DNA of 34,089 bases from Candidatus Gastranaerophilales bacterium. GTDB taxonomy: Bacteria > Cyanobacteriota > Vampirovibrionia > Gastranaerophilales > Gastranaerophilaceae. Every line of letters begins with the position of its first letter. Position 1 is the first letter of the stretch. The position numbers and the translations under genes are program-made. The notes below the pieces were generated by a model. The model saw only the letters and a list, made by a program, of their open reading frames with translations, was not told where the DNA came from and did no database searches. The stretch spans positions 1-34,089 of the forward strand of contig CALVHD010000020.1 in the NCBI GenBank assembly GCA_944327245.1. Direction: 5' to 3'. This document shows positions 26,273 to 34,089 of this stretch, piece after piece.

Positions 26273-27346
26273 TCATAGAATTTTTTTAATTGTTTCAACA
26301 TATTTTGTTATAATTTTTTCTTTTTCATAATTTTTTATTGTTTTTAGAGTATTTTTTGAAATTTCTTCTTTTTTTTCTTTTGAAAGGTTTTGAATTTTTA
26401 CTAAAATTTCTTTTATTTCTTTAACATTGGGATTAATCAAAAAGCCGTTTTCATTGTTTTTTATTATGCCGTCTATTCCTTCTTTTTTTGTGCCTATTGT
26501 AATTAAGCCTCTTGCCATGGCTTCAAGATACGATAGTCCAAAAGTTTCTTTTATGGATGGAAGAATAAAAACATCATTTTCATCCAGTTTTCCATAAATT
26601 AAGCTATGGTCTATATATGGCATAATTTTAATTTTGTTTTTAAGATTTAATTTTTTAATTAAATTGTTCAGTTTTTTAAATTCTTTCCCTTTACCATAAA
26701 TTATGTATTCAAAATCAAAATCAACTTGGGCTAATGCTTTAATAACAAGATTAAGATTTTTTCTTTTGATTAATTTAGACAGAGTGATTATTTTCAATTT
26801 TTCTTTATTGAAAGATTTTTTCTCTTTTATATTTTCTTTTTCAATGAAAGATGGAAGTGTGAAATCTGCCTTTAGTTCTTTTTTTAAAAATTCACTTCTT
26901 GCGCCTATTAGGGTTGAATTTTTAAGAGCTTTTTTTAATTTATTTTTAAAATAAAAACTGTATTTAAATTCTTTTAAAACCCTGTAGTCGCTATAATGCA
27001 GGATTGAAATTCTCGGAAGTTTTAATTTTTTATTGATTAAATCGGCATAAATATGTCCTAAGGGCATATGGGAAATGATTATATCAAAATCATTTGTTAT
27101 TTTCAGATTATTGAATAAAAAGGGTATAAAAAAATTTTTGTTATATATTTTTATTCCTTTTTGCAGATATTCTCCTGATTTAAAAATTTTATGACCTCTT
27201 ATAAAGGTATTAAACAGAAAATTAGGACGAATAATTTCAATAATAATATTTTTTTCTTTTAGCGCAAGCGAAAAATCCTCTAAAACTGATGGAAGTGTAT
27301 TATCAGATTTTAGAGGATATAAATCGCTAATTAATAATATTTTCAT
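26273..27346 (-). CDS. Glycosyltransferase, GT4 (group 1) family
   Basis: A 357-residue GT-B fold glycosyltransferase. The N-terminal Rossmann half begins MKILLISDLYPLKSDN; the C-terminal half has the donor-binding region ITLSKLIKRKNLNLVIKAL and the E-x7-E motif in KETFGLSYLEAMARG (about 265-280). It contains no membrane helix or signal peptide. It should add a sugar to an envelope polysaccharide or lipid, but donor and acceptor cannot be read. Codon use is strongly Lys/Ile/Asn rich, more AT-rich than its neighbours. Its ATG overlaps the glyS stop (TAATG), so it is coupled to glyS; the pairing has no obvious functional logic. Confidence 0.9.
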   Translation of the reverse strand: MKILLISDLYPLKSDNTLPSVLEDFSLALKEKNIIIEIIRPNFLFNTFIRGHKIFKSGEYLQKGIKIYNKNFFIPFLFNNLKITNDFDIIISHMPLGHIYADLINKKLKLPRISILHYSDYRVLKEFKYSFYFKNKLKKALKNSTLIGARSEFLKKELKADFTLPSFIEKENIKEKKSFNKEKLKIITLSKLIKRKNLNLVIKALAQVDFDFEYIIYGKGKEFKKLNNLIKKLNLKNKIKIMPYIDHSLIYGKLDENDVFILPSIKETFGLSYLEAMARGLITIGTKKEGIDGIIKNNENGFLINPNVKEIKEILVKIQNLSKEKKEEISKNTLKTIKNYEKEKIITKYVETIKKIL

Positions 27347-29403
27347 TATAATTTTTCAAAATCGCAAACTATATTGAATTTTTCATTTAATTTTGATAAA
27401 AGTGCCAGTCTGTTATTTTTGATTTTTTCATCTTTATCCATAACAAGAACTTTATCAAAGAACTGAACAATCGGATTTATTAAAGTTTTTAGGGATTGAA
27501 TATATAAATCGAGATTTTCTATGTTTGTATTGTGATTATTAATTGCCTCATAGAGGGCTTTTTCTTCGTCTAAAATAAATAAATCCGGCGAAATATTGTC
27601 ATAAGAATTATCTTTTAATATTCTTTTAACTCTTGTTGCATTTTCTTTGATTAATTCAAAATCAGGATTTGTTTGATATTTTGTTAATATCTTTGCTTTT
27701 TCAATAAAGCCTGTCAAATCTTTTAGAGAGTTAAATCCTGAGATTGAATTTATAATTTGAATTTGAAAATCTTTTTCATACATAAATAGTAATCTTTGTA
27801 AGAAAAATTCTTTTAATTCATCTAAAATTGTATTTTCAAGTTCAATATTGAATTCTTTTGATAATAAATCAAGAGAATGTTTAATTATGGCTTCTAAATC
27901 GAGATTTAGATTTTTTTCGATAACCGTTCTTAAAACACCTATTGCTGCACGTCTTGCACCAAGCGGGTCATTAGAACCGGTTGGACGTTTTTTCTTTTTA
28001 TCACCTTGTGTTGAAATAAATAAAGCGCAAATTGTGTCTATTTTATCGGATATTGAAACTATTTGACCTGTTATTTCGCTTGGTAGTTCAGAGTTTGCAC
28101 CAAGGGGAAAATAATGTTCACAAATTCCTTTTGAAACGGATTCGTTTTCATTATCAATTTGAGCATAGTTTTCTCCGATAAATCCTTGAAGCTCGGTGAA
28201 TTCAAAAACAAGCTTGGTAGATAGATCGCATTTTGATAATAAAGCACATCTTAAGATATCTTTATCATCTTTAATCGATAATTTTTCGCAAATTAATTGA
28301 GATAGATTAATCATTCTTTGAGTTTTATCATAAAGAGAGCCAAGACCTTTTTGGAAAGTCATTCCTTTAAGGTTATCAAGTTTATCTATTAGTTTTGTTT
28401 TGGTGTCTTCATGATAGAAAAATGCGCCATCTTCAAGTCTTGCTGTTATAACTCTTTGGTTTCCGGCTTTAATGTTTGAAAAATCATCCCCAACATAGTT
28501 TGCCATTGTGATAAATTTATTTGATAATTTTCCGTTTTTATCCCATAGAGGAAAATATCTTTGATGTTGAGTCATAACAGTTGTTGTAACGATAGAGGGA
28601 ATTTGAAGATATTTTTCATTGAATTCACACAAAACTGCTTTGGGCCATTCTGTGATAAATGTTATTTCTTCTAATAAATCTTCCATACTTTCAAATTTTA
28701 TTTCAAGATTGTTGTCTTGAGCGCATTTTTTGGCAAGATTTATAATTAATTCTTTTCTTTCATCTTGATTGGCCACAACATTACCTTTTTTAAGAATTTC
28801 AAGATAATTTTTTGGTTCATCTATTGTTAAATATCTGTTTGTTGAATATCTGTGCCCTTGCGTTGTGTTTGTTGCTTTTTTATCAAGAATGTTAAGGTCA
28901 ACAACTTCATTTCCTAAAATTGCAACAACATTTTCAATAGGGCGAGAGAATTTTTCCGTATTATCCGCCCAGCGCATAAAGTGCGAACCTTGCATTTTCA
29001 AAATTAGTGATTCAATATTGTCTTTTAAAATTTCAGCTGTAGTTTTGCCTTTTATTTCAATTTTTGCCCAAATGTAGTTATCTTTTTCATACAGCATTGA
29101 AGTTTCAATATTGTTTTTCTTTGCAAAACCAATTGCAGCAGGGCCGAGTGTTCCGTCTTGATTTTTGGCAACAGATAAAATCGGGCCTTTGACATCTTTT
29201 TCAATGGTTTCTTGTTTATCAGCCAGATTTGAAACGATTATTGCCAATCTTCTTGGAGTAGCATAAACTTTAATATCACCGTAAACAAGGGCGTTTTCTT
29301 TGAATAATTTTTCAAAAGAGCTTTTTAGCTGCGCAATTGCGCTTGGAATGAATTTATAGGGAAGCTCTTGAACCAATATTTCCAGTAAAAAATCTTTTCT
29401 CAT
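27346..29403 (-). CDS. glyS: Glycyl-tRNA synthetase, beta subunit
   Basis: The beta chain of the bacterial alpha2beta2 GlyRS, needed for tRNA recognition and charging with glycine. At 685 residues it has full length. Recognisable segments: MRKDFLLEILVQELPYKFIP, VYATPRRLAIIV, MRWADNTEKFSRPIENVVAI, TTTVMTQHQRYFPLWDKNG, RLEDGAFFYHEDTK, KGLGSLYDKTQRM and GSNDPLGARRAA. The alpha-subunit gene glyQ is not in the window, so the pair is split. The ATG follows a minus-strand TATAAT by nine bases, so the leader is very short. It begins the run glyS-GT-nusB-ftsY-comEC. Confidence 0.97.
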   Translation of the reverse strand: MRKDFLLEILVQELPYKFIPSAIAQLKSSFEKLFKENALVYGDIKVYATPRRLAIIVSNLADKQETIEKDVKGPILSVAKNQDGTLGPAAIGFAKKNNIETSMLYEKDNYIWAKIEIKGKTTAEILKDNIESLILKMQGSHFMRWADNTEKFSRPIENVVAILGNEVVDLNILDKKATNTTQGHRYSTNRYLTIDEPKNYLEILKKGNVVANQDERKELIINLAKKCAQDNNLEIKFESMEDLLEEITFITEWPKAVLCEFNEKYLQIPSIVTTTVMTQHQRYFPLWDKNGKLSNKFITMANYVGDDFSNIKAGNQRVITARLEDGAFFYHEDTKTKLIDKLDNLKGMTFQKGLGSLYDKTQRMINLSQLICEKLSIKDDKDILRCALLSKCDLSTKLVFEFTELQGFIGENYAQIDNENESVSKGICEHYFPLGANSELPSEITGQIVSISDKIDTICALFISTQGDKKKKRPTGSNDPLGARRAAIGVLRTVIEKNLNLDLEAIIKHSLDLLSKEFNIELENTILDELKEFFLQRLLFMYEKDFQIQIINSISGFNSLKDLTGFIEKAKILTKYQTNPDFELIKENATRVKRILKDNSYDNISPDLFILDEEKALYEAINNHNTNIENLDLYIQSLKTLINPIVQFFDKVLVMDKDEKIKNNRLALLSKLNEKFNIVCDFEKL

Positions 29404-29423: not shown

Positions 29424-29576
29424 AAAAATCAAAACAAAATACAGACCCAAAAAAATATATTAAGAAAATGCAACAAAAACGTAACAATAATAAAATTTTT
29501 TTTGAAAAAAAATCCATTATGTGTCAAATTATAGGTAAAGAGATTATTGGGTTTATAAATTTTGTTAATACAGGAT

Positions 29577-31178
29577 GTGGAAATAGTTGAAATAGCTGAT
29601 GAGCAGGCATATGACGCCAAGCTGTTAGCGAGCGCATTATCTGATGCCAAAGCAAGAAAAAGAGCAATGATAGACATGCTCGGGATTTCTTGTGCGGCGA
29701 ATTATTTAAATGCTAAAAAAATCCGAATTAATACTAAAAGAAGTGTTTATAAAATCCCTCTTTTGTTTGAAGAATTTAAAATTACCGATATTTATTACGG
29801 TAATTACAGGATTGATGTTATAACTCTTTATCGTGAAAAAACGATAAAAATTCCAAAAATACACTCCGAGATGGATATTTTGCCTCATTTTTATTTTGTT
29901 GTTCAAATAGGAGCAAAAATAAAAGAAGCAAAAATGATTGGTTTTATTGATTCAAAAAGTATCAGTAATTGTTCTTTTGATTCCAAATTTTATTATCCTA
30001 CTTTGGATATGATTTTTGATGTAAACAAATTTATTGCCCTAACGCGTCATTCTGTTGCAACTAAAACTCTTTTAGGAAAACACATCGATTGCATGGGTTT
30101 ATTTTTGAAGTTTATTGATAATGACTTATCTTCACTTTATAAAAGACAAATGATTCAACATTTGATGAACTGTGATTCTTGCAGGGCTCGTTTTATTGAT
30201 GTGGTTGAATTTGAGAAATTGGCAAATAATATTAAATATTATCCTGATGTTATAAGAAAAAGCGAAACAAAAATTAAAACCCAAAATTCTTCATCTGAAT
30301 TGCAGCCGCCCCCTAAAGCAATGACTTTAGAGGAAAGTCTTGAAAATGTTGCGCTGGACGAAGAAGATAAATCCCAAGATGATGCTTTTATAGATATCGA
30401 ACAAGACACTGAAGCAAAGAAAGAAGATTTTTCCGATAAGGAAAAACCAAAAACCGTTCAAATGTTTGATTTGTCTTCTGATGAATTCAAAAAACAGACA
30501 AGTAAAAAATTAATAGAGGGAATTTTTAATGAAGTTCCAAAGTTGGAATTGCCTCAAATAAAGACTGTAATTAGTGCAAAAAATAGAAGAACAATATTGG
30601 TTATAGCATTAATTTTTATTATTTTGGGCAGTTTTGCATTAATTTCCATAAAAGGAAGTACTGAATCTTTTGAGCAAAATCAGCCATTGGCGGATTTTGA
30701 AGAGGTTGATGAAAATTATGCAGATTCTTATATGCCTCAAATGCATGTTCAAGGACAAGCTCAGCTTATTCCAAAAGAAACAAGTGTGAACGATTTTGTT
30801 ATAAATCAGCCGATTTCAACTAAGCCTACATATACACCTTCGGTTGCAAAGATTTCTTGGGAGGCGCCTGAAAGCGTAGTTAAAAAAGACAATTATATTA
30901 AGTTTTTGCAATTAGTGGGTAAAAATATTAAATTGAATTTGCAAAATGATTTACTTTTGGTTAATGATGTTCCGATAAATAAAATTGTAAAATTAGATTT
31001 AAAAATTGCTCCAAACGGTAATATAGATGATATTAGGCTGTCATCTTCATCAGGAACAGTTGCAATTGATAATGCAATTAAAAAAGTAATAAATGATACT
31101 TTGACATATATGAAACCTCCGAGCAACGGTATAATTTCAAAGCCTGCTGATGTTACTCTGGTGGTTGAATTAAAGTAG
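29577..31178 (+). CDS. DUF1822-like / zinc-finger / TonB-C-like membrane protein
   Basis: The start is uncertain: TTG at 29562 or GTG at 29577 (I use the latter); a TATAAA at 29554-29559 lies just before. Residue numbers below count from the TTG. Residues 10-140 resemble the DUF1822 family (CAANYLNAKKIRI, then FYFVVQIGAKIKEAKMIGF), known from cyanobacteria, where it neighbours sigma factor genes. Next is an anti-sigma-type zinc finger (zf-HC2): C177, H200, C204, C207. A long acidic linker precedes one membrane helix (about 344-363); then a periplasmic linker leads to a TonB-C-like end (IAPNGNIDDIRLSSSSG to VVELK, about 470-538). N-terminus inside, C-terminus outside is the expected topology. 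This could sense an envelope signal and control a sigma factor, but no sigma gene lies alongside. Domain identification is from pattern alone. Confidence 0.75.
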   Translation: MEIVEIADEQAYDAKLLASALSDAKARKRAMIDMLGISCAANYLNAKKIRINTKRSVYKIPLLFEEFKITDIYYGNYRIDVITLYREKTIKIPKIHSEMDILPHFYFVVQIGAKIKEAKMIGFIDSKSISNCSFDSKFYYPTLDMIFDVNKFIALTRHSVATKTLLGKHIDCMGLFLKFIDNDLSSLYKRQMIQHLMNCDSCRARFIDVVEFEKLANNIKYYPDVIRKSETKIKTQNSSSELQPPPKAMTLEESLENVALDEEDKSQDDAFIDIEQDTEAKKEDFSDKEKPKTVQMFDLSSDEFKKQTSKKLIEGIFNEVPKLELPQIKTVISAKNRRTILVIALIFIILGSFALISIKGSTESFEQNQPLADFEEVDENYADSYMPQMHVQGQAQLIPKETSVNDFVINQPISTKPTYTPSVAKISWEAPESVVKKDNYIKFLQLVGKNIKLNLQNDLLLVNDVPINKIVKLDLKIAPNGNIDDIRLSSSSGTVAIDNAIKKVINDTLTYMKPPSNGIISKPADVTLVVELK

Positions 31179-31204: not shown

Positions 31205-32398
31205 ATGGAAGTTAATAAAAATTATAAAAATCTTGAAGCAAGTTATCTTTTTTCAACAATAGCAAAAAAAGTAAATGAGTTTGTTGAAAAAAATCCCGAT
31301 AAAAAGGTAATTCGTCTGGGTATCGGCGATGTTACAAGACCGTTGTGCAAAAGTGTAGTGGAAGCTATGAAAAATGCCGTTGATGAAATGGGAACTTTTG
31401 AAGGCTTTCATGGTTACGGCCCTGAGCAAGGGTATGATTTTTTGAAAGAAAAAATTCAACAATATTATAAAGATAAAAAAGTTGATTTAAAGCTTGATGA
31501 AATATTTATTTCAGACGGCGCAAAGTCTGATTTAGGAAATATTTTAGATATATTTTCAAAAGAAAATACGGTATTAATTCCTGATCCTGTTTATCCTGTG
31601 TATGTTGACACTAATATTATGCAAGGTAGGAAAATAGTCTTTGCTCAAGCAAATCAGAATAATAGTTTTCTTCCTTTGCCGGATGAAAGTTTAGCGGCAG
31701 ATATTGCTTATATTTGTTCTCCAAACAATCCGACAGGAGCTGTTTATAATAAAGAACAGCTCAAAAAATGGGTGGATTGGGCAAATAAAAATAATGCCGT
31801 AATTCTTTATGATGCTGCTTACGAGTGTTTTATCAGTGATGATAGTTTGCCAAGAAGTATTTTTGAGATAGATGGCGCAAAAACTTGTGCAATAGAGTTT
31901 TGTTCATTTTCAAAAACGGCCGGTTTTACAGGTACCCGTTGCGGTTATACGGTTGTTCCTTTTGAGCTAAAATTTGGCGATATGAGTTTAAATAAAATGT
32001 GGTTAAGAAGACAAACAACAAAATTCAACGGTGTTCCATATATTGTCCAAAGAGGTGCCGAAGCAGTGTTTAGTGAACAAGGTCAGAAAGAAATTAAGGA
32101 AAATATAAATTATTATAAAAAGAATGCTAAAATAATTGCTGATACATTAAAAAAACATAATATATGGTTCACAGGCGGTATTCATTCACCTTATATTTGG
32201 TTAAAATGTCCGAATAATATGACAAGTTGGGAATTTTTTGATTTTCTTTTAGAAAAAGCTCAGGTTGTAGGTACGCCGGGAGCAGGTTTTGGTAAAAATG
32301 GCGAAGGGTTTTTCCGTTTAACTTCTTTTAATACAAATGAGTCTACAAAAGAAGCAATGGAAAGATTGGATAAAGTTTTGCTTAACTATTGCAAATAA
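31205..32398 (+). CDS. dapL: LL-diaminopimelate aminotransferase
   Basis: DapL converts tetrahydrodipicolinate directly to LL-diaminopimelate with glutamate as amino donor, a one-step route to lysine and peptidoglycan found in cyanobacteria, chlamydiae and plants. The product has 397 residues. Class I/II PLP aminotransferase features: RLGIGDVTRPL, GYGPEQGYDFLKEKI, SDGAKSDLGNI, SPNNPTGAVY, LYDAAYECF, and the PLP lysine K237 in FCSFSKTAGFTGTRCG. These match DapL more closely than aspartate aminotransferases. GAGG lies before the ATG, and the gene follows the DUF1822-like gene by 26 bases, probably in one transcript. Confidence 0.95.
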   Translation: MEVNKNYKNLEASYLFSTIAKKVNEFVEKNPDKKVIRLGIGDVTRPLCKSVVEAMKNAVDEMGTFEGFHGYGPEQGYDFLKEKIQQYYKDKKVDLKLDEIFISDGAKSDLGNILDIFSKENTVLIPDPVYPVYVDTNIMQGRKIVFAQANQNNSFLPLPDESLAADIAYICSPNNPTGAVYNKEQLKKWVDWANKNNAVILYDAAYECFISDDSLPRSIFEIDGAKTCAIEFCSFSKTAGFTGTRCGYTVVPFELKFGDMSLNKMWLRRQTTKFNGVPYIVQRGAEAVFSEQGQKEIKENINYYKKNAKIIADTLKKHNIWFTGGIHSPYIWLKCPNNMTSWEFFDFLLEKAQVVGTPGAGFGKNGEGFFRLTSFNTNESTKEAMERLDKVLLNYCK

Positions 32399-32539: not shown

Positions 32540-32827
32540 ATGAAATCAACTTAATATATTATATATTTTGCTGCGGCTTGAAAAATTTTTTGTTTTAATA
32601 TATAACGTATCTACACTGGTTAATAAATATGATATTGTATGCTTTATGTAATTTGTTTAATGAGTCTTAAAATTGTTTAAAATTATATAGTGAAAATGCG
32701 TTAGTGTACTTCTGTTAAAATTTTATTAAGAAATGTAAAATTTTATGTTAAAGTATTTCTTATCAGCGCAAATATCATGGTTTATATAACTTCTATGGAT
32801 AGTACTAAAATTTGGGAGTCATTGTAT
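32540..32827. other. AT-rich intergenic region before the CHAP-like gene
   Basis: About 290 bases with no coding region or RNA gene that I can support. Several TATA-like stretches occur, but none pairs convincingly with a -35. An ATG at 32777 is in frame with the next gene, but the GGGAG at 32814-32818 favours the later start. The promoter of the CHAP-like gene should lie here. Confidence 0.6.
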
Positions 32828-34089
32828 ATGAAAATCAATGGAATATCTTCAGTTCAGCTAAACAAAACCGAAAAACAAAATTTTAACAAAAATAATGTTC
32901 AAAATCCTATATACAGGAGCGGAATTGCTGCTGATTCTGTTTCTTTTACAGGTAAAAAAGGCGGCTTCAAGCAACGTTTGGCTGCAAGAGTTGCCTCCAT
33001 TGTTCTTGCAATAACAGGTATGTTAAATATGGTTTCATGCGGTACTGCTAAAAATTCTGAAACGGAAGCGGATAAACCATCTTCATCACAAACGTTGGTT
33101 GAAGATACCGATGATTCTCTTGATTTGGCGCAAACACCTGAATCTGCAAGCTCTTTGACAGATACAGAAGATGAAAAAACAACCGAAGATACTCTTGATG
33201 TTGATACAAAAGAAATAGATGAAGAAGCTTTATCAAATGAGGCTGAAGAAGTTGACCCTTATTATGAAGAATATATTTTACCGATTTATGACGAAATCAC
33301 TGATCCATATAATATCGTAGATGGAATTATAAGAAGTGAAAGAGCCGGTGATGCCGACCATTTCGTAGCAGAAAGCGGACTTGGTGCCGATGGCGAGAGA
33401 GGTGGTGTTGCTTGGTGTGCTGCATATGTAACATATATTAATGAAAATTCTGGAATAGATTTACTTCCTTGGTATGAAAATATATGTCAAGATGTTAATC
33501 GTGACGGCGTTAAAGACTCTTGGACAGTTAAATATGTTAGACAGGCTGCAGAGGCAAATAATGCCTTAATATCAGGTAATAAAGCCATGGTAGGTGATAT
33601 TTGTTTTATAAATTCTCACCATATGGGTATTGTATGTAAAGTAGAAGATGACGGCACAATATTATTAATTGCCGGCAATAGTGCTGACAGAACTTTAATA
33701 TATGCTGTTCAACCGCAAGATTATGATAAAGTTGCATTTGCAGATACAACAGGTAGAGATAGAACAAATGTTAATAATTTAGATGGTGCTGTATACGGTA
33801 ATTCTATTGATTATAACGTATTTACAAAAACACCTGATAACATACTTCCTCTTGATGATTATAATCCTTGTGATAATAACACTAAAAGAGAATGGTATAT
33901 ACCGGGAGATGGTTTTTCAGACTTTTTAGAAGATGAACCTGAATGTCCAAATCCAAACCCAAATCCAACACCGGATCCAACTCCAAATCCAAACCCAACT
34001 CCGGATCCAAACCCAAATCCAAACCCAACTCCGGATCCAAACCCAAATCCAAACCCAACTCCGGATCCAAACCCAAATCCAAACCCAAC
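32828..34089 (+). CDS. CHAP-like amidase/peptidase lipoprotein with Pro/Asn repeat tail (3' end outside window)
   Basis: Open to the window edge; 420 residues are visible from the ATG at 32828 (GGGAG nine bases upstream). Residues 1-55 are polar, with SVSFTG at 37-42. A hydrophobic segment then leads to MVSC, a lipobox-like site with Cys71. An acidic, Thr/Ser-rich linker (about 72-155) follows. The enzyme-like domain has WCAAYV with Cys197, a DVNRDGVKD loop (222-230) that could bind calcium, GDICFINSHHMGIV with His264/265, and AGNS with Asn284. This Cys-His-Asn order fits CHAP/NlpC-P60-type peptidoglycan amidases or peptidases. From about residue 375 the tail repeats TPDPNPNPNP. The long segment before the hydrophobic stretch is unusual for a lipoprotein. 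Target and substrate are unknown. Confidence 0.8.
   Translation, partial: MKINGISSVQLNKTEKQNFNKNNVQNPIYRSGIAADSVSFTGKKGGFKQRLAARVASIVLAITGMLNMVSCGTAKNSETEADKPSSSQTLVEDTDDSLDLAQTPESASSLTDTEDEKTTEDTLDVDTKEIDEEALSNEAEEVDPYYEEYILPIYDEITDPYNIVDGIIRSERAGDADHFVAESGLGADGERGGVAWCAAYVTYINENSGIDLLPWYENICQDVNRDGVKDSWTVKYVRQAAEANNALISGNKAMVGDICFINSHHMGIVCKVEDDGTILLIAGNSADRTLIYAVQPQDYDKVAFADTTGRDRTNVNNLDGAVYGNSIDYNVFTKTPDNILPLDDYNPCDNNTKREWYIPGDGFSDFLEDEPECPNPNPNPTPDPTPNPNPTPDPNPNPNPTPDPNPNPNPTPDPNPNPNP
33991..34089 (+). repeat. 30-bp tandem repeat coding for a Pro/Asn/Asp tail
   Basis: Three exact 30-bp units (33991-34020, 34021-34050, 34051-34080) and the first 9 bases of a fourth, running out of the window. 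Each unit encodes ten residues of the type TPDPNPNPNP. Less exact units reach back to about 33949. The unit is a multiple of three, so copy-number change keeps the frame. Confidence 0.92.

Follow-up and report, generated by a model that had tools for sequence, protein, structure and literature searches.

A helical domain carrying an Hx3Cx2C motif is a signature of class I anti-sigma factors, and the published class I groups contain zinc and zinc-free types together (PMC7406223). RsiW, a class I zinc anti-sigma factor, combines Hx3Cx2C helices with one membrane helix and a linked ECF sigma gene, and is found with its partner SigW within one crystal (5wuq). In cyanobacteria, DUF1822 (PF08852) is a common domain without an assigned function, and a survey reported ECF sigma genes together with DUF1822 genes in some prokaryotic neighborhoods (PMC8195603). 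Cyanobacterial SigG/SapG likewise consists of an ECF sigma factor and an adjoining partner; we liken it to the system described here by arrangement and not by kinship with SapG. The sigG and sapG mutants of the cyanobacterium PCC 7002 show an identical cold phenotype (PMC2758279); therefore, a sigma-associated protein is not necessarily a plain inhibitor. An anti-sigma role has been reported in Nostoc punctiforme, in the form in which Bell 2017 is cited in PMC12329169.

In this study, we analyzed a 34,089-nucleotide stretch of DNA (the window) from a Candidatus Gastranaerophilales bacterium, which contains a gene for a 538-amino-acid protein in which parts of these systems are joined. We propose, with a probability of roughly 75%, that it is an anti-sigma factor of class I type that is anchored in the membrane and bears a TonB-like sensor in the periplasm, for which sigma factor binding and inhibition are predicted. 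The kind of system, sigma and anti-sigma factor, is already known; the domain architecture is new. The open-access literature yielded no described equivalent combining zf-HC2 with TonB or an anti-sigma factor with TonB and a zinc finger, and nothing on GltJ as an architectural analogue. An earlier note, written from the sequence, knew of no described protein with the DUF1822/zf-HC2/TonB combination, and we found none in that literature either.

Domain organization of the protein

The gene lies at 29562..31178 on the + strand, with a provisionally assigned TTG start, and is flanked by the divergent glyS (27346-29403) and by a gene for an aminotransferase (31205-32398). From the N- to the C-terminus, the protein contains a DUF1822 N-domain, putative zinc-binding helices of the anti-sigma type, an acidic linker, one membrane helix and a TonB-like domain. 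This order had been proposed in the earlier note and was confirmed using Pfam and AlphaFold. The AlphaFold model, built from a 40-sequence alignment, resolved the N-domain, the helices, the membrane helix and the C-domain as separate pieces (residues 5-160, 177-237, 341-364 and 428-537) connected by low-confidence linkers. Pfam profiles agreed in part: DUF1822 (27.6 bits vs cut-off 25; residues 9-143) and TonB_2 (26.3 bits vs 22; residues 471-524) scored above their cut-offs, whereas zf-HC2 (19.7 bits; residues 183-208) was slightly under its cut-off of 22.2, and TonB_C, the profile suggested at first for the C-terminal end, reached 19.1 bits against a cut-off of 24.6. When 40 family members were scanned singly at E<=0.01, TonB_2 was detected in 37, DUF1822 in 33 and zf-HC2 in 31, with a best zf-HC2 E-value of 7.9e-6. 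Of 58 relatives, 55 carried an orthologue, as did 133 of the 136 genomes in the order-wide set, indicating that the architecture did not arise by chance. A second, weak match in the same genome (G000:C5:18427, E 0.05) was rejected, as the region reads as an unrelated membrane protein gene.

The N-terminal domain (residues 5-165; 29574..30056, +) was modeled with a pLDDT of about 90. The initial description of this segment as DUF1822-like holds for its N-terminal part: the match is above the Pfam cut-off and covers positions 1-142 out of 370 of the profile only, and we therefore call the protein a sharer of the N-terminal domain and not a full-length DUF1822 member. In a profile comparison with 29 cyanobacterial DUF1822 proteins using hhalign, residues 5-205 were aligned (prob 94.9, E 4.4e-8). 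The cyanobacterial proteins have a homologous N-domain, a matching order of secondary structure and an adjoining sigma-like gene; however, those sampled are 334-488 amino acids long, lack Hx3Cx2C and end in a beta-rich part. A gene matching a sigma profile was immediately upstream of DUF1822 at 24 of 30 cyanobacterial loci, one of them with a TIGR02937 E-value of 1.2e-30; together with the published survey, this bears out the statement of the earlier note that DUF1822 genes neighbor sigma factor genes in cyanobacteria.

Structural comparison of the N-domain placed the archaeal Hjc resolvase (2wcw) at the top (Z 9.0, 105 aligned residues, 3.0 A). A separately built model of a cyanobacterial DUF1822 protein also gave archaeal Hjc as the top match (Z 7.0, about 3 A); the Hjc alignments of both models cover 105-110 residues. 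A Z-score near 8 may reflect a common structural arrangement, and Foldseek searches with the N-domain of both models returned no match at E<=0.001. Hjc was the nearest structure for two independent models, which suggests that the modeled DUF1822 N-domain has a fold of the PD-(D/E)XK type. Where the catalytic acid would be expected, all 46 family members have Ile or Val, with Pro and, in most cases, Lys after it, which makes nuclease activity unlikely. The domain is thus probably catalytically dead, with the catalytic positions assigned by pattern and not by superposition.

The putative zinc-binding helices resemble class I anti-sigma factors

The N-domain is followed by a helical domain of the class I anti-sigma type (residues 170-237; 30069..30272, +), in which AlphaFold placed helices at 177-185, 191-203, 205-226 and 228-237. 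It thus has the three to four helices of a class I anti-sigma factor domain (ASDI), with counterparts in RsiW and RslA, and it carries the Hx3Cx2C motif of the zinc subclass as H200-x3-C204-x2-C207 (30159..30182, +). This motif was present in 37 of 46 family members and absent in 9. A zinc finger formed by C177, H200, C204 and C207 had been proposed; our results retain the last three residues and make C177 the less likely fourth. Both upstream ligand candidates, H174 and C177, lie at 30081..30092 (+). H174 was found in 36 of the 37 members with Hx3Cx2C and in none of the 9 members without it, whereas C177 occurred solely within the window's genus and in a single near relative. H174 is therefore likelier than C177 to be the fourth metal ligand. 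The occurrence of zinc and zinc-free members within one family is consistent with the mixed composition of the published class I groups (PMC7406223).

The best PDB sequence match of the family profile was RsiW (5wuq_C, E 0.0011, profile positions 180-219), followed by the anti-sigma factor DdvA; TonB entries came next at E 0.1-0.3. In the structural comparison, residues 173-246 matched RsiW (5wuq_D) with a Z-score of 6.3 but an rmsd of 8.7, and RslA (3hug_F) with a Z-score of 5.2 over 56/56 residues, although these Z-scores are weak if taken alone, as the domains are small and helical. The window family resembles RsiW in its Hx3Cx2C helices, its one membrane helix and its linked ECF sigma gene. 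Three parts set it apart from RsiW: the DUF1822 domain that precedes the helices, the long acidic linker, and the TonB-type domain on the far side of the membrane. The gene arrangement differs as well, the sigma gene being the downstream one of the pair and, in the window's genus, unlinked.

Linkage to an ECF-type sigma factor gene

A sigma factor gene near orthologues had been named as a check of the transcriptional role, and such a gene was found across the order. Close reading of order-level loci showed that, in 14 of them, the next gene has the same orientation and encodes about 190 amino acids; the gaps are 4-202 bp, and all 14 neighbors matched TIGR02937 (sigma70-ECF; best E 4.9e-21). 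On a wider scale, 100 of 118 genomes had an ECF-type sigma gene as the adjoining downstream gene in the same orientation, the 118 being the matches listed with both coordinates, a part of the 133 genomes that carry the anti-sigma-like gene. Several of the non-linked cases appear to be contig breaks; true unlinking was seen in the window's genus, in G029 and in family f6. The profile of the sigma neighbor had a sole PDB match, SigW (E 8.5e-5), so that the two family profiles match both halves of the RsiW/SigW complex.

The two genes were also retained together. Among the 136 genomes of the order, 130 had a sigma homologue and 133 the anti-sigma-like gene, and two had neither. The anti-sigma-like gene was kept and a sigma homologue was not detected in G213, G254 and G297, nor in G011, which is 99% complete.

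The homologue in the window's genome (G000:C10:34663-35313, 222 amino acids) was found using the family profile (E 3.7e-32). It is diverged and falls below the cut-offs in general family libraries; therefore, its sigma assignment rests on the family profile. The sigma gene was divergent from bamA at 10 of 10 loci read in the genus, with 158-218 bp between them, an arrangement that represents one inheritance within the genus and not ten independent cases. The neighbor belongs to the BamA/Omp85 family, and the copy in the window's genome has an Omp85 domain and three POTRA stretches. This neighborhood makes an envelope role in the window's genus attractive and hints at what the module may watch.

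An alternative is that the protein is a membrane scaffold whose zinc finger recruits, for example, a STAND-type ATPase of the same operon, the sigma gene being merely co-transcribed. In many relatives (L033-L051, e.g., L038:11279-14245), the gene after the sigma gene encodes a zinc-ribbon/AAA/STAND-type ATPase/TPR protein. This protein is nearly universal in the order (47 of 48 genomes), including the window's genome, in which its gene is unlinked (G000:C1:83196-85982). However, the tightest linkage was that to the sigma gene, cyanobacterial DUF1822 is sigma-linked without the architecture of the window protein, and the helices resemble anti-sigma factors. We consider the scaffold improbable, if marginally less so than the other alternatives.

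Several variants of the sigma gene were observed along with these loci. In genus g34 (L105:5997-7820 and L106:5683-7482), a very long acidic insertion separates the N- and C-terminal parts of the sigma homologue, so that the ORFs reach about 600 amino acids. In family f6 (L089, L090 and L091), the sigma gene is in a different conserved cluster away from the anti-sigma-like gene, with a metal-dependent hydrolase-like gene and two similar genes of about 300 amino acids. Long open frames suggested a fusion of the sigma and STAND genes in G083 and G178; the fusion was rejected because the ORFs are separate, and a TAG stop separates both genes in G083.

The linker, the membrane helix and the TonB-like end

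An acidic and mostly disordered linker (residues 238-340; 30273..30581, +) follows the helices, as judged from its composition and a pLDDT mostly below 50. The length of the cytoplasmic linker differs greatly among full-length family members, with some 100 residues in the shortest and several hundred in the longest. The single membrane helix (residues 341-364; 30582..30653, +) was placed from sequence, AlphaFold and charge. Lys/Arg residues were enriched ahead of it in 41 of 45 members, and the N-terminus is therefore predicted to be cytoplasmic. Beyond the membrane is a TonB/TolA-type C-terminal domain (residues 428-538; 30843..31175, +), for which, in addition to the TonB_2 match, Foldseek ranks 1-12 were all TonB/TolA and structural comparison gave the H. 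pylori TonB-CTD with a Z-score of 8.9.

This periplasmic fold is shared with TonB/TolA proteins, and the protein could accordingly be read as an energy transducer, in which the helix couples to ExbB/ExbD, the periplasmic domain drives an outer-membrane receptor and the cytoplasmic half is decoration. In favor of this reading, the TonB/TolA fold of the C-terminal domain is clear, and ExbD genes are present in the genome. However, both ExbD genes are located on contig 5 (48.4-50.2 kb) along with another TonB_2 protein, and none is within the window. The membrane helix of the window protein has no His for ExbB/ExbD coupling, and a His was found in the helix of 4 of 45 family members. The large cytoplasmic half and the sigma gene adjoining it in relatives would also be unexpected in a transducer. 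Because a separate ExbD-linked TonB-like protein exists, the window protein is not the sole TonB-like one, and with a helix lacking His it is unlikely to be the energizer.

Proposed mechanism

For the anti-sigma factor, we propose a dedicated ECF-type sigma factor as the binding partner of the cytoplasmic N-half, which consists of the DUF1822 domain and the four-helix zinc-binding domain; in this genome, the partner would be the 222-amino-acid product of the gene beside bamA. The acidic flexible linker and the membrane helix would join this half to the periplasmic TonB/TolA-type domain, such that the sigma factor may be held at the inner membrane. The periplasmic domain would sense an envelope partner or state, and a change in it may free the sigma factor through cleavage or a conformational change. 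The domains, the topology, the order-wide linkage, the co-retention and the resemblance of the two proteins to RsiW/SigW are computed results; we infer the binding and its inhibitory effect. The suggestion in the earlier note that the protein passes an outer-membrane or periplasmic signal to transcription gained support from the sigma linkage, the RsiW/RslA matches, the topology and the TonB/TolA fold. Against the anti-sigma reading stand the unlinked genes in the window's genus, the four genomes that keep the anti-sigma-like gene with no sigma homologue detected, the zf-HC2 score below cut-off, the low score of the G000 sigma protein in family libraries, the lack of a common upstream motif in the search for a regulon and the 9 of 46 members without the zinc motif, although such mixing is known from the published class I groups (PMC7406223).

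Least probable of all is that the DUF1822 half is a positive sigma partner, a chaperone or co-activator with membrane tethering for localization: the results fit activation as well as inhibition, and the shared cold phenotype of the PCC 7002 mutants (PMC2758279) fits it too, but Hx3Cx2C helices are characteristic of class I anti-sigma factors (PMC7406223), and the proteins matched in sequence and fold were inhibitors.

If the anti-sigma reading is true, periplasmic information would reach RNA polymerase by a new route, through an anti-sigma factor equipped with a TonB-type sensor. The protein and its sigma factor would form a candidate envelope-signaling module that is nearly universal in a common, mostly uncultured gut lineage, and DUF1822 would gain a testable role. 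A far more tentative extension, which we consider doubtful as a whole, is that DUF1822 binds sigma factors throughout the phylum and descends from a PD-(D/E)XK nuclease fold that has lost its activity. The Gastranaerophilales would have incorporated it into an anti-sigma factor that spans the envelope and uses its TonB-like sensor to follow the assembly of the outer membrane. The sigma factor would control bamA and act together with the conserved STAND-type ATPase.

Flanking sequences

A conserved block upstream of the gene, TTTTTTGAAAA-N11-TGTGTCAAATTAT (29498..29532, +), is a candidate promoter. A genome search allowing <=3 mismatches did not find a second copy, a similar block was not seen in the sigma/bamA intergenic region, and the upstream motif search gave no shared motif marking a regulon. 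The idea that a common promoter motif marks a regulon was therefore rejected. Downstream in the window, an ORF at 32777-34087 (+) that runs off the end has a possible lipobox close to its start, and its Pro-Asn-rich tail arises from a 30-base tandem repeat (33946-34089).
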